Assembly: GCF_016907315.1 (NCBI RefSeq)
Contig: NZ_JAFBBS010000001.1
Coordinates: 2,790,001 to 2,854,000 of the forward strand
DNA length: 64,000 bases
Direction: 5' to 3'
Origin: Microbacterium esteraromaticum
GTDB taxonomy: Bacteria; Actinomycetota; Actinomycetes; Actinomycetales; Microbacteriaceae
This document shows positions 21,276 through 48,446 of this stretch, in pieces. A program made the position numbers and the translations under genes. A model generated the notes under the pieces. It saw only the letters and a program-made list of their open reading frames with translations, was not told the DNA's origin and did not search any database. How positions within the stretch are numbered: position 1 is the stretch's first letter; each line of letters opens with the position of its first letter.

Positions 21276-22694
21276 TCAGCCCTTCAGCCGGGCGATCCAG
21301 GCCTCGACGTCCTCGACGGTGCGCGGGATGTCGGCCGACAGGTTGACGGCGCCGTCGGCGGTCATCAGGATGTCGTCCTCGATGCGCACGCCGATGCCGC
21401 GCAGTTCCTGCGGGACGGTGAGATCGTCGATCTGGAAGTACAGGCCGGGCTCGATGGTGAAGACCATGCCCTCCTCGAGGACGCCGTCGTAGTACATCTC
21501 ACGGCGCGCCTGAGCGCAGTCGTGCACGTCGATGCCGAGGTGGTGCGAGGTTCCGTGCACCATGTAGCGACGGTGCTGGCCGCCGTTGTCGGCGTCCAGC
21601 GCCTCCTCTGCGGTCACCGGCAGCACACCCCACTCGGCGGTGCGCTTCGCGATGACCTCCATGGCGGCCTCGTGCACGGTGCGGAACCTCACGCCCGGCT
21701 TGGCGGCGGCGAACGCCGCATCCGCCGCCTCGAGCACGACCTCGTACACCCGGCGCTGCACGTCGGAGAACGTGCCGTTCACCGGCAGGGTGCGGGTGAT
21801 GTCGGCGGTGTACTGGCTGTCGACCTCGACACCCGCGTCGATCAGGATGAGATCGCCCGGCACGACGGCGCCGTCGTTGCGCGTCCAGTGCAGGTAGCAC
21901 GCGTGGTGACCAGACGCGGCGATCGTGTCGTAGCCCTCCCAGTGCCCATCGCTGCGGGCGCGCTGGTGGAACACGCCCTCGACGATGCGCTCGCCGCGGG
22001 GATGCGCGACCGCCCGGTCGAAGTCGCGGATGATGTCGTCGAATCCGGAGGCGGTGACAGCGACCGCGTGACGCATCTCGGCGATCTCGAACTCGTCCTT
22101 GACGAGTCGCAGCTCCGAGACGAAGCGGGTCAGCTCTTCGTCCCCGTCGACGACGAGGTCGTCGTCAGCCGGGACGAAGGTGTCGACGTGCGCGGTGGCG
22201 AGGTCGAGGTCGGCGGCGACGCCCGCGAGCGAGGGGCGGGGGCCGATCCAGAACTCGCCGATCGTGGCATCCGAGTAGAACTCGCTCGTGGTGCGGTCAG
22301 CGCGCTCACGGAAGTACAGGGTGATCTCGTGGCCGTTGTCGGTCGGCTCGAAGACGAGCAGCGAGTCGGGCTCCGACTCGTTGGCCCAGCCCGTCAGATG
22401 CACGAAGGCCGAGTGGGCGCGGAACGGGTAGTCGGTGTCGTTGCTGCGCTGCTTGAACGATCCTGCCGGCACGACCAGGCGCTTGCCGGGGAAGGCCGCC
22501 GACACCTTGGCGCGGCGGGCGGCCGCGAACGGCGCCTGGGCCCGCGGCGCGGGCATGGACTCGGGGCGGTCGGCCCATCCGGTGGAGATGGTGTCGAGGA
22601 ACCCGCGGGGGAACGGCTGCTTGCGGGGATTCTTCTCTTCGGCGACGGCCTCGGCGGGGGTCTCGACGGCGGCGTCGTTGTCTGCGCTGGTCAT
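21276..22694 (-). CDS. pepP: Aminopeptidase P family (Xaa-Pro) metallopeptidase
   Basis: 472 residues, M24B type. An AMP_N domain (about 50-190) is followed by the pita-bread domain with metal ligands in L-I-D-A-G-V-E, Y-T-A-D-I-T-R-T, H-G-T-S-H-H-L-G-I-D-V-H-D, T-I-E-P-G-L-Y and G-V-R-I-E-D-D. It removes N-terminal residues before proline in the cytosol. The ATG at 22694 is preceded by GAGAAT (22701-22706) and a 6-base spacer; the longer frame to 22730 adds residues without conservation. It is divergent from the cysteine leader/cbs operon. Confidence 0.93.
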   Translation of the reverse strand: MTSADNDAAVETPAEAVAEEKNPRKQPFPRGFLDTISTGWADRPESMPAPRAQAPFAAARRAKVSAAFPGKRLVVPAGSFKQRSNDTDYPFRAHSAFVHLTGWANESEPDSLLVFEPTDNGHEITLYFRERADRTTSEFYSDATIGEFWIGPRPSLAGVAADLDLATAHVDTFVPADDDLVVDGDEELTRFVSELRLVKDEFEIAEMRHAVAVTASGFDDIIRDFDRAVAHPRGERIVEGVFHQRARSDGHWEGYDTIAASGHHACYLHWTRNDGAVVPGDLILIDAGVEVDSQYTADITRTLPVNGTFSDVQRRVYEVVLEAADAAFAAAKPGVRFRTVHEAAMEVIAKRTAEWGVLPVTAEEALDADNGGQHRRYMVHGTSHHLGIDVHDCAQARREMYYDGVLEEGMVFTIEPGLYFQIDDLTVPQELRGIGVRIEDDILMTADGAVNLSADIPRTVEDVEAWIARLKG

Positions 22695-22782
22695 GTGTCC
22701 ATTCTCGCACCGGAGTACCGGCACCGGCATCCGAGGCGGCGCAGCGGTTGGCGATCGGGAGGAGTTCGGCTATCGTGAGCGC

Positions 22783-22812
22783 GTGTCCTTCACCTGTCGC
22801 TGTTGTCGCTGA
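22783..22812 (+). CDS. Polycysteine leaderless leader peptide (VSFTCRCCR)
   Basis: A nine-codon ORF, GTG to TGA, encoding V-S-F-T-C-R-C-C-R. It starts exactly 6 bases after the -10-like TATCGT (22771-22776), so it should be read as a leaderless message. Three of its last five codons are Cys (TGT). It lies 90 bases before the cystathionine beta-synthase start. Leaderless short ORFs with clustered Cys codons act as cysteine-responsive attenuators in mycobacteria: ribosomes stall when Cys-tRNA is short. The same role is inferred here. Too short for ordinary gene callers. Confidence 0.7.
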   Translation: MSFTCRCCR

Positions 22813-22878
22813 GCGCCCCGCGCTCATCTTCGACGACCCCGACGGCATGCCGCACTCGCGCAGCGCTCCCGCTGCGCG
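22811..22878 (+). promoter_or_regulatory. Candidate attenuator hairpins between leader peptide and cbs
   Basis: The leader's stop codon enters a perfect 6-bp hairpin GAGCGC-CCC-GCGCTC (22811-22825). A second 9-bp stem CGCGCAGCG (22857-22865) pairs with CGCTGCGCG (22870-22878) 24 bases before the cbs ATG. A ribosome stalled on the Cys codons would cover or free the first stem. No T tract follows either one, so Rho action or masking of the ribosome site is more likely than intrinsic termination. Mechanism is inference. Confidence 0.45.
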
Positions 22879-22902
22879 CGGCCACACATCCAGGACCTTC
22901 TC

Positions 22903-23919
22903 ATGCGTTACGCATCGCACATCGCCGACCTCGTCGGCGGCACGCCCCTCGTCCGCCTGAACCGCGTCACCGACGGCGTCGCCGCCACGGTGCTCGCGAA
23001 GGTGGAGTACTTCAATCCGGGCGGATCGGCCAAAGACCGCATCGCCCGCGGAATCATCGACGCGGCCGAGCGTGACGGGCTGCTGCGCCCCGGGGGCACC
23101 ATCGTCGAGCCGACGAGCGGCAACACGGGCGTCGGTCTCGCGCTGGTCGCTCTGCAGCGCGGCTACCGGATGGTCTTCGTCGTGCCAGACAAGTTCGCAG
23201 GCGAGAAGGTGGCGGTTCTCCGCGCGTACGGCGCTGAGGTCGTCATGACACCCGCGAACGTGCCGCCAGAGCATCCGGAGTCGTACTACAGCGTCTCCGA
23301 TCGCCTCGCTCGCGAGATCCCGGGTGCCTTCAAGCCGAATCAGTTCGCGAACCAGAATGGTCCACGCGGACACTATGCGACCACCGGCCCCGAGATCTGG
23401 CAGGACACCGACGGCAGGGTGACGCACTTCGTCGCCGGCATCGGCACCGGCGGCACGATCAGCGGCACCGGACGCTTCCTCAAGGAGCAGGGCGACGTCG
23501 TCGTCGTCGGCGCCGACCCCGAGGGGTCGATCTACTCCGGCGGTCCCGTGCACGGCTATGCGGTCGAGGGCGTCGGCGAGGACTTCGTTCCCGAGACCTT
23601 CGATCCGTCGGTCGTCGACCGCTTCGAGCGGGTGCCGGACGCCGAGAGCTTCGCCATGACGCGCAGGCTGGCCCGCGAGGAGGGTCTGCTCGTCGGCGGC
23701 TCATCCGGCATGGCCGTCGTGGCGGCCCTGCGCACCGCTCGAGACCTTCCCGCCAGCGCCGTGGTGGTCGTGCTGCTGCCCGATCACGGCCGCGGCTATC
23801 TCTCCAAGATCCACGACGACGGCTGGCTCGCCGATCACGGCTTCGCCGGTCTCATCCCATCCCAGACCGCACGCAGCACCGCCCCCGCAGGCACCGACCC
23901 CACCAGGAGCACACGATGA
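22903..23919 (+). CDS. cbs: Cystathionine beta-synthase catalytic domain, lacking CBS pair
   Basis: 338 residues, fold-type II PLP enzyme. The PLP lysine lies in N-P-G-G-S-A-K-D-R-I-A, with P-T-S-G-N-T-G-V-G-L-A, G-I-G-T-G-G-T-I-S-G-T-G and D-P-E-G-S-I-Y-S-G-G. It follows mycobacterial Cbs closely along its length up to D-G-W-L-A-D-H-G-F. The regulatory CBS-domain pair that completes the actinobacterial enzyme (about 460 residues) is absent and replaced by a tail of about 20 residues. It joins homocysteine and serine; a cysteine-synthase side activity cannot be excluded. ATGA overlap with the gamma-synthase gene makes a transsulfuration operon under the leader peptide. Confidence 0.88.
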   Translation: MRYASHIADLVGGTPLVRLNRVTDGVAATVLAKVEYFNPGGSAKDRIARGIIDAAERDGLLRPGGTIVEPTSGNTGVGLALVALQRGYRMVFVVPDKFAGEKVAVLRAYGAEVVMTPANVPPEHPESYYSVSDRLAREIPGAFKPNQFANQNGPRGHYATTGPEIWQDTDGRVTHFVAGIGTGGTISGTGRFLKEQGDVVVVGADPEGSIYSGGPVHGYAVEGVGEDFVPETFDPSVVDRFERVPDAESFAMTRRLAREEGLLVGGSSGMAVVAALRTARDLPASAVVVVLLPDHGRGYLSKIHDDGWLADHGFAGLIPSQTARSTAPAGTDPTRSTR

Positions 23920-25067
23920 CCACCGCAGCCCGCGCCTTCGCCAGCCTCGCCGTCCATGCGGGGCAGGAGTTCGACCCCACCACCGGTGCGGTCATCCCGC
24001 CCGTGCACTTCTCGACCACGTACGCCCAGGACGGCATCGGGGGTCTTCGCCAGGGCTACGAGTACGGCCGCAGCGCCAACCCCACCCGCACCGCGCTGCA
24101 GACCCAGCTGGCAGCGATCGAGGGCGGTGCGCATGCCTTCTCGTTCGCATCGGGGCTTGCGGCCGAGGACACCCTGCTGCGAGCAGTCCTCTCGCCGGGC
24201 GACGAGGTTCTGCTCGGCAACGACGTCTACGGCGGCACGTACCGCCTGCTCGCCCGGGTGCTCGGCCCGTGGGGAGTGCGCCTGCGCGTCGTCGACATGA
24301 GCGACGCCGAAGCCGTGCGCACCGCGGTAGCCGAGCGCGCACCCCGGATGCTCTGGGTCGAGACGCCGTCGAACCCTCTGCTGCGGATCACCGACATCGC
24401 CGGCCTCTCCGCGATCGGCCGCGAGGCGGGTGCGCTCGTCGTCGTCGACAACACGTTCGCGACTCCGGCACTGCAGCAGCCGCTGCTGCTCGGCGCAGAC
24501 GTGGTCGTGCACTCGACGACGAAGTACCTCGGCGGCCACTCCGACGTGGTCGGCGGCGCGCTCGTGATGAACGACGATGCGCTCGCCGAGCGGGTGGGCT
24601 TCCTGCAGTTCGCCGTCGGCGCGGTGTCAGGCCCTCTCGACGCCTGGCTCACGACTCGCGGCATCAAGACGCTCGACGTGCGCATGCAGCGGCACAGCGA
24701 GAACGCGGTGAGGATCGCAGAGTATCTGGCCGGGCACGAGCGCGTCGCACGCGTGCACTATCCGGGCCTGGCCACCCACCCCGGCCACGAGATCGCCGCG
24801 CGGCAGATGTCGGCGTTCGGCGGCATCGTGTCGGTCGCACTGGAGTCGGGCGAGGCCGCGCGGCGCTTCGCCGAGTCGACGCGCCTGTTCCAGCTCGCAG
24901 AGTCGCTCGGAGGTGTCGAATCGCTGGTGAACTACCCCGACGCCATGACGCACGCGTCCGTGCGCGGAACCGATGCGGCCGTTCCCGAGGAGGTCGTGCG
25001 TCTCTCGGTCGGGATCGAGGACTCCGCCGATCTGCTCGCGGACATCGAGCAGGCCCTGCGCGCCTGA
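23916..25067 (+). CDS. metB: Cystathionine gamma-synthase / gamma-lyase family enzyme
   Basis: 383 residues, Cys/Met-metabolism PLP family. The PLP lysine is in H-S-T-T-K-Y-L-G-G-H-S-D-V, with Y-E-Y-G-R-S-A-N-P-T and the C-terminal S-L-G-G-V-E-S-L. The family covers O-succinyl- or O-acetylhomoserine to cystathionine (MetB) and cystathionine to cysteine (gamma-lyase). Pairing with cbs favours the cysteine direction, but the sequence alone does not settle it. It is translationally coupled to cbs and converges on the endonuclease-family gene with a 19-base gap. Confidence 0.9.
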   Translation: MTTAARAFASLAVHAGQEFDPTTGAVIPPVHFSTTYAQDGIGGLRQGYEYGRSANPTRTALQTQLAAIEGGAHAFSFASGLAAEDTLLRAVLSPGDEVLLGNDVYGGTYRLLARVLGPWGVRLRVVDMSDAEAVRTAVAERAPRMLWVETPSNPLLRITDIAGLSAIGREAGALVVVDNTFATPALQQPLLLGADVVVHSTTKYLGGHSDVVGGALVMNDDALAERVGFLQFAVGAVSGPLDAWLTTRGIKTLDVRMQRHSENAVRIAEYLAGHERVARVHYPGLATHPGHEIAARQMSAFGGIVSVALESGEAARRFAESTRLFQLAESLGGVESLVNYPDAMTHASVRGTDAAVPEEVVRLSVGIEDSADLLADIEQALRA

Positions 25068-48372: not shown

Positions 48373-48446
48373 CGCGGGGTGGAGCAGTTCGGTAGCTCGC
48401 CGGGCTCATAACCCGGAGGTCGCAGGTTCAAATCCTGTCCCCGCAA
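48373..48446 (+). tRNA. Initiator tRNA-fMet (CAT)
   Basis: A 74-base cloverleaf without encoded CCA. The acceptor arms are CGCGGGG (48373-48379) and CCCCGCA (48439-48445) with A73. The first pair is a C-A mismatch, the hallmark of initiator tRNA needed for formylation. The anticodon stem C-C-G-G-G/C-C-C-G-G around CTCATAA gives anticodon CAT and the three consecutive G-C pairs required for P-site entry. GTTCAAATC forms the T loop. Confidence 0.96.

Follow-up and report, generated by a model that had tools for sequence, protein, structure and literature searches.

The classical trp, ilv, and leu attenuators have a leader peptide with many codons for the amino acid that their operon makes, followed by alternative RNA folds. 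In mycobacterial leaders, stalled ribosomes reportedly free the ribosome site. The accessible part of one report (PMC13236596) is in line with such a release. Leaderless cysteine uORFs of mycobacteria, with ribosome occupancy, are reported in the available portion of Shell et al. 2015 (PMC4633059), and mycobacterial polycysteine sORFs (Canestrari et al. 2020, Mol Microbiol 114:93) are reported to work by translation attenuation and the pace of ribosomes on Cys codons; as far as the available text goes, six candidate sORFs were examined in M. tuberculosis. Earlier, Seliverstov et al. 2005 (PMC1262725) predicted cysteine leaders upstream of the cys operons in Mycobacterium and P. acnes, and of cbs in Bifidobacterium longum, and, in the part of the paper available, found no terminators at them; Leifsonia xyli, a member of Microbacteriaceae in the same genome set, is not named there among the bearers of cys or cbs leaders. 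A reannotation of Streptomyces lividans (PMC8079986) lists eight leader peptides, none of which is called cysteine-dependent in the accessible text.

Here we describe a candidate of this kind in Microbacterium esteraromaticum, found in a 64-kb window (the whole stretch of DNA analysed) of a 3.24 Mb single-contig genome. A short ORF with clustered Cys codons lies directly upstream of the sulfur-metabolism operon cbs-metB, and we consider it likely that it forms a leaderless, cysteine-sensing attenuator that would control this operon through ribosome stalling that opens the cbs ribosome site. With the mycobacterial polycysteine sORFs, as far as the available texts describe them, it shares a short ORF, presumed leaderless here, clustered Cys codons, and sulfur genes downstream; the peptides differ, and one leader was found, at cbs, compared with six candidates in M. 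tuberculosis. The TGT bias, the stop-codon hairpin, and the anti-Cys element are features that we measured for the Microbacterium leaders. The B. longum cbs leader is alike in having a short ORF with Cys codons near its stop, placed before cbs and free of a terminator, but it is a single sequence, and the accessible part of that paper (PMC1262725) reports no conserved hairpins for cys leaders and does not discuss a leaderless start. The classical attenuators are alike in their amino-acid-rich leader peptide and alternative RNA folds; unlike them, the leader in the window has no terminator hairpin with a U run, as a scan for intrinsic terminators across positions 22500–23000 returned no terminator-like site.

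The mycobacterial leaderless Cys ORFs that the original prediction took as its precedent are borne out by the accessible literature. Its caution that such a leader at cbs-metB in Microbacteriaceae was not known to it as described needs one amendment, namely that a cbs cysteine leader had already been predicted in B. longum (PMC1262725). For Microbacterium and Microbacteriaceae, no description was found among the titles and abstract openings listed in a search that had most subscription papers outside its scope. On the available parts of these sources, the Microbacterium leader therefore extends a known kind: cysteine attenuation, established by experiment in mycobacteria, would reach into Microbacteriaceae and, if our reading holds, into reverse transsulfuration.

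Elements of the cbs leader and its operon are collected in Table 1. Direct reading agrees base for base with the expected TATCGT, the exactly six-base spacer (GAGCGC, 22777–22782), and the nine-codon ORF V-S-F-T-C-R-C-C-R-stop, whose codons are GTG TCC TTC ACC TGT CGC TGT TGT CGC TGA; the nine pairs expected of a hairpin before the cbs ATG were likewise found. The hairpin at the stop codon is present, with seven pairs including a T-A at its foot instead of the 6 bp first proposed. The metB frame overlaps cbs by 4 nt (ATGA). No consensus promoter was listed at the leader region by the promoter scan, and at the gathering threshold Rfam gave no match at the leader; its only match within the window is a tRNA at 48373–48446.

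Table 1 Features of the candidate cysteine leader and the cbs-metB operon, in window coordinates.
Feature	Position	Strand	Remark
Candidate -35, TTGGCG	22748..22753	+	17 nt to -10; 4/6 match to TTGACA; putative
-10 element, TATCGT	22771..22776	+	read directly; spacing kept in Microbacterium leaders
Leader ORF, VSFTCRCCR	22783..22812	+	presumed leaderless; conserved
P0 5′ arm, GTCCT	22785..22789	+	predicted (MFE fold) to pair with AGGAC 22892-22896, cbs ribosome site
Element A, Cys-codon tract, CTGTCG-CT-GTTGTCG	22794..22808	+	predicted to pair with element B
Hairpin P1 on the stop codon, TGAGCGC-CCC-GCGCTCA	22810..22826	+	7 pairs incl. T-A at foot
Element B, CGACGACCCCGACGG	22831..22845	+	complementary to element A
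Hairpin P2, CGCGCAGCG-CTCC-CGCTGCGCG	22857..22878	+	9 pairs; 5′ of cbs ribosome site
cbs Shine-Dalgarno, AGGA	22892..22895	+	7 nt before ATG 22903
cbs, cystathionine beta-synthase-like, 338 aa	22903..23919	+	PALP domain only
metB, cystathionine gamma-synthase family	23916..25067	+	NF005871, 631 bits (cut-off 513)

A strict scan was defined as TAnnnT, 5–8 nt, a start codon, and 4–30 codons with at least two Cys; on both strands of the window its single match is the cbs leader. Among the best 80 of at least 588 cbs loci, the closest relatives of the window gene are those of Microbacterium. These 80 comprise 24 Microbacterium-type loci, four of which bear other or wider titles, and 56 others, mostly from Streptomyces, Actinoplanes, and their kin. 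All 24 encode a mini-gene like VSFTCRCCR (consensus V-x-LTCRCCR-stop), and 23 of them have a metB match after cbs, L023 giving no hit. The strict scan found none at the 56 loci outside Microbacterium, where an earlier scan with a lazy gap had returned no -10-linked Cys ORF and six unlinked ones.

Of 197 genomes sampled within the genus, 151 gave a cbs match at E 1e-100, and 89 of the 150 outside the host genome were examined. The leader was found by strict scan within 400 bases upstream of cbs in 54/54 loci with a near cbs (five of which duplicate loci among the 24) and in 3 of the 35 with a more distant cbs, here called long. Dinucleotide-shuffled upstream DNA of the near group gave 0.006 matches per sequence, and the reverse strand gave 0/54; across three locus groups the chance rate was 0.001–0.007 per sequence, with no reverse-strand match in any. 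The Microbacterium loci examined thus conserve the ORF along with its Cys codons and its distance from the -10; a lack of conservation in close relatives would have spoken against the original prediction. After removal of the five duplicates, and with L013 and L028 set aside (the peptide is present there, the strict TAnnnT is not), 75 distinct strict leaders remain, that of the window included; the Microbacterium leaders lie 94–135 nt upstream of cbs. When the -10 requirement was dropped, a relaxed scan of the long group matched 10/35 loci, against 0.019 per shuffled sequence, seven of the matches being far upstream and unlike the leader. Seven loci that lack a strict leader (L291, L295, L297, L299, L302, L315, and L316) carry an RSSSxSCCR-like frame about 330–400 nt upstream of a long cbs; it was found by the relaxed scan only and is perhaps the edge of a neighbouring gene.

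At the family level, cbs was matched in 109/149 sampled genomes. Strict Cys leaders precede 27 of the 108 cbs genes outside the host genome, all in other genera (near-duplicates L098/L102, L114/L190, and L109/L259 included, and with the cbs start of L259 placed roughly), and the remaining 81 have none; a relaxed scan gave 29/108, against 0.020 per shuffled sequence. The other-genus peptides are unlike that of Microbacterium (VNISRSCCRR, VFVTCCCRCR, VSTVKSCCCCR, and MRLRLSCSCCPR among them), and what leaders of different genera have in common is Cys codons near the stop. A fixed pattern, CTSACSTGTCGNTGTTGTCN, proved too narrow, matching 0/149 family genomes and missing even the host genome, whose leader reads TTCACC. 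Alignment of the 75 distinct and 27 unlike leaders makes codon choice, hairpins, and pairing testable. One record titled Planococcus sp. APC 4015 carries a Microbacterium-type cbs with the leader; since it falls inside Microbacterium on the tree and its leader stretch is identical to that of a sampled genus genome (G265), its title or assembly is probably wrong.

In order to search for further copies, a covariance model of the leader ORF with its A:B pairing was run against 119 genus genomes; it matched in 65 and not in the other 54. Below E 1e-3 there are 61 matches, one per genome, and every one is at cbs: 60 were placed by coordinates within 120 nt upstream of the gene, and that of G096 by reading the sequence. 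In G096, the leader VSLTCRCRR (positions 380–483 onward of its stretch) stands before a cbs with a fragmented frame, the result of decay or sequencing error, and the 5-kb stretch gave no metB match. Eight weaker matches (E 0.002–0.003) comprise one at cbs (G196) and seven elsewhere; all seven stretches are crossed by one or more open frames and showed no Cys mini-gene, so we read them as chance. The model also misses some true leaders, such as VLTLRCCRR in G163, which the strict scan found. Its second-best hit in the host genome (E 0.04) has no Cys mini-gene.

A 21-base pattern allowing up to three mismatches has one exact site in the host genome, the cbs leader, and 19 sites with two or three mismatches, making 20 in all compared with eight for the reversed pattern. 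Across five other stretches of the same genome the strict scan returned a single match, an ORF of 26 codons in which the two Cys codons are not clustered; in the sulfate-assimilation stretch, one of the five, it found no Cys leader. If the cbs leader is the sole one of its genome, the system would be simpler than the multi-locus one of mycobacteria. Matches to another pattern, TGTCGNTGTTGTCN, occur in 173 of 197 genus genomes; because they include clustered repeats elsewhere, we drew no count from it.

The start of the transcript is suggested by spacing. TAnnnT precedes the start codon by 6 nt in 57 and by 7 nt in 18 of the 75 distinct leaders, with 5–8 nt allowed, and the start is GTG in 73; this is the spacing expected of a leaderless start, as judged from sequence. 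The -35 is poorly conserved and begins TTG in 13/75. Cys codons at a presumed 5′ end, conserved before cysteine-making enzymes, point to sensing of charged Cys-tRNA. We propose that the transcript begins at or beside the GTG at 22783, in which case the ribosome would load directly on this 5′ end and read V-S-F-T-C-R-C-C-R. With ample Cys-tRNA it would finish and depart, letting the Cys codons pair with element B around P1 and, in the window genome, letting the first leader codons also pair with the cbs Shine-Dalgarno, so that cbs would be translated poorly. With scarce Cys-tRNA it would halt at the TGT codons, mask both pairing segments, and leave the cbs site open. Output of cbs-metB would then supply cysteine by reverse transsulfuration, the route from homocysteine and serine to cysteine on which the assumed direction of the pathway is based.

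The Cys codons of the Microbacterium leaders are 217 TGT and 17 TGC, and those of the other-genus leaders are 63 TGT and 7 TGC; in 24 non-overlapping coding-like ORFs of the window the counts are 3 TGT and 45 TGC. This bias fits slow decoding and RNA pairing alike, because it also holds in the other genera, where the Cys tract shows no preference for the element-B region (pairing of 0.24 vs 0.32 in shuffles).

Folding was examined in 30 Microbacterium representatives, each less than 82% identical to the others. Compared with versions whose downstream sequence was shuffled, the leader RNA is more stable (mean z -2.5). Bases of the Cys tract pair with the segment that separates P1 from the ribosome site at 0.71, vs 0.30 in shuffles, with z above 1 in 24/30. 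A stem of at least four pairs occupies the place of P1 in 71 of the 75 distinct leaders, as 34 different stems (GAACGC/GCGTTC, GTGCC/GGCAC, TGAAGC/GCTTCA, and CGCCGG/CCGGCG among them), many of them compensatory, and P1 is therefore supported by compensatory change. The same scan moved by +12, +20, and +30 nt found 15, 9, and 3 stems of 75; at +40 nt it recovered 61/75 at hairpin P2, and at -15 nt, inside the ORF, 51/75 with a mean score of 4.4 vs 12.7 at P1. In the other genera, a stem stands at the stop in 7/27.

Elements A and B are complementary in 91% of cells across 25 sequences, against 25–63% for slid versions, with the structure derived from one row. Covariation beyond shuffles was looked for in these 25 sequences and not found, because element A is nearly invariant, and RNAalifold gave a weak consensus fold for the same set (-1.57 kcal/mol, 10 pairs). 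Native A:B duplexes (-17.49 kcal/mol) are barely better than swapped ones (-17.23 kcal/mol), and p 0.05 against shuffles was reached in 10/75. Against shuffled targets, the mean z in Microbacterium was -1.06 for the Cys tract and -0.45 for nucleotides 1–12 with the ribosome site; the corresponding values in other genera were -0.43 and -0.38, and the swap control was near zero.

Our first model was a simple sequestration of the Shine-Dalgarno shared across Microbacterium. In the window, the Shine-Dalgarno region pairs with the leader ORF at 0.49 (z 1.6); across the genus the value is 0.20 vs 0.15 in shuffles, so P0-type pairing is not general there, and the region as a whole is paired less than in shuffles (0.44 vs 0.54). 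With a stalled ribosome placed in the fold, opening of the Shine-Dalgarno alone became easier by more than 0.3 kcal/mol in 29/75 leaders and harder in 29/75. We therefore keep sequestration as partly supported, for lineages like that of the window. The 27 other-genus leaders pair with the Shine-Dalgarno region at 0.42 vs 0.21 in shuffles, with z above 1 in 17/27 and ten such pairs in L098. One sensing principle thus seems to work through more than one RNA architecture, as Microbacterium has P1 and the other genera mostly lack it, tending to pair the leader with the Shine-Dalgarno region instead.

When the ribosome was placed on the first Cys codon and the whole cbs site was considered, opening became easier by more than 0.5 kcal/mol in 14 of 30 representatives and harder in 2. 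In the window, the predicted cost of opening the site was 9.6 kcal/mol in the free leader and 7.3 kcal/mol with the stalled ribosome, and that of opening the Shine-Dalgarno 2.26 and 1.10 kcal/mol. Translational attenuation is favoured on these grounds, and the output probably lies at translation initiation, a reading that the folding tests contradict in part.

The same cysteine leader could instead act on transcription, with the folded leader or Rho halting the polymerase before cbs unless a ribosome stalls. The 90 nt that separate the leader stop from cbs are rich in C (43 C, 23 G), strong hairpins recur at P1 and P2, the Microbacterium Shine-Dalgarno is not unusually paired, and Seliverstov et al. 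proposed Rho for the Mycobacterium and P. acnes cys and B. longum cbs leaders in the accessible part of their paper (PMC1262725). Against this stand the lack of any terminator-like site in the scan of 22500–23000 and the sign of the effect, for stalling would expose the C-rich element B and A:B pairing would conceal it, the reverse of what Rho binding at B requires; we consider such an output unlikely. More doubtful still is that a stalled leader ribosome shields the message from decay at its 5′ end and that the structures concern stability. The ORF does lie at the predicted 5′ end, and in the window leader without a ribosome A, P1, and B fold into a single stable stem, but shielding would leave unexplained the tendency of leaders in other genera to pair with the ribosome site. 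A conserved structured RNA, serving as a regulator or protein site to which the short ORF is incidental, would account for the strong structure and for the recurrence of B and P1; it is very improbable given that leaderless-type Cys ORFs precede 27/108 other-genus cbs genes despite differing peptides and structures. A chance ORF with Cys codons, conceivable for a frame of nine codons, is excluded by its conservation at 54/54 near loci against 0.006 per shuffled sequence and 0/54 on the reverse strand.

The favoured reading, cysteine sensing at translation initiation, can be set beside the domain content of the enzyme. The best NCBIfam match of the window cbs is cystathionine beta-synthase at 479.7 bits (cut-off 510.25), spanning positions 3–321 of a 457-position model, and no CBS (Bateman) domain was found in the protein at E 0.001. 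In 93 proteins of known length, leader-bearing cbs are short (<420 aa) in 51 cases, all Microbacterium-type, and long in 15 (two Microbacterium, 13 other genera); without a strict leader, 26 are long and one, L099, is short. The near and long labels used above came from a cut on hit strength and open frame; of the three leader-bearing loci labelled long, L322 proved short (352 aa) and L320 and L321 are long, and 25 of the 54 near loci, covered over 461 bases each, bear on the leader and not on cbs length. On the tree, the short leader-bearing proteins all fall together (support 93/60); the association therefore reflects at most a few events and is no statistical proof.

CBS-domain scores of L320 and L321 are 20.3 and 16.3 bits, below the cut-off of 24, as is that of the leader-less Microbacterium protein L329 (18.0 bits); five other leader-less Microbacterium proteins score 25.0–33.7, and 34.4–43.3 bits were obtained for three long proteins from other genera whose genes have a leader. 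A tentative and rather doubtful idea is that in Microbacterium the control of cysteine supply moved from enzyme to RNA, an attenuator whose Cys codons fold onto an anti-Cys element around a stop-codon hairpin being gained first and the CBS domains lost afterwards. G224 and G289, which combine a leader with a long protein whose domains score under the Pfam cut-off, would then be relics of the intermediate step. The pattern is suggestive of domain loss after leader gain in Microbacterium, on very few independent events. The exchange is opposed by the three other-genus leader-bearing proteins that retain good domain scores and by L099, short without a leader. A link between leaders and the loss of regulatory domains would make an exchange of allostery for RNA testable.

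L099 itself (genome G127, cbs at 1498) lies outside Microbacterium and encodes a 320-aa protein with PALP only and no strict Cys leader; domain loss occurs also without the leader. In L095 (genome G057, cbs at 1501), a Cys leader, VRYSLCCCR, lies 222 nt upstream of a 754-aa frame in which cbs seems to run on into a metB-like part as a fusion.
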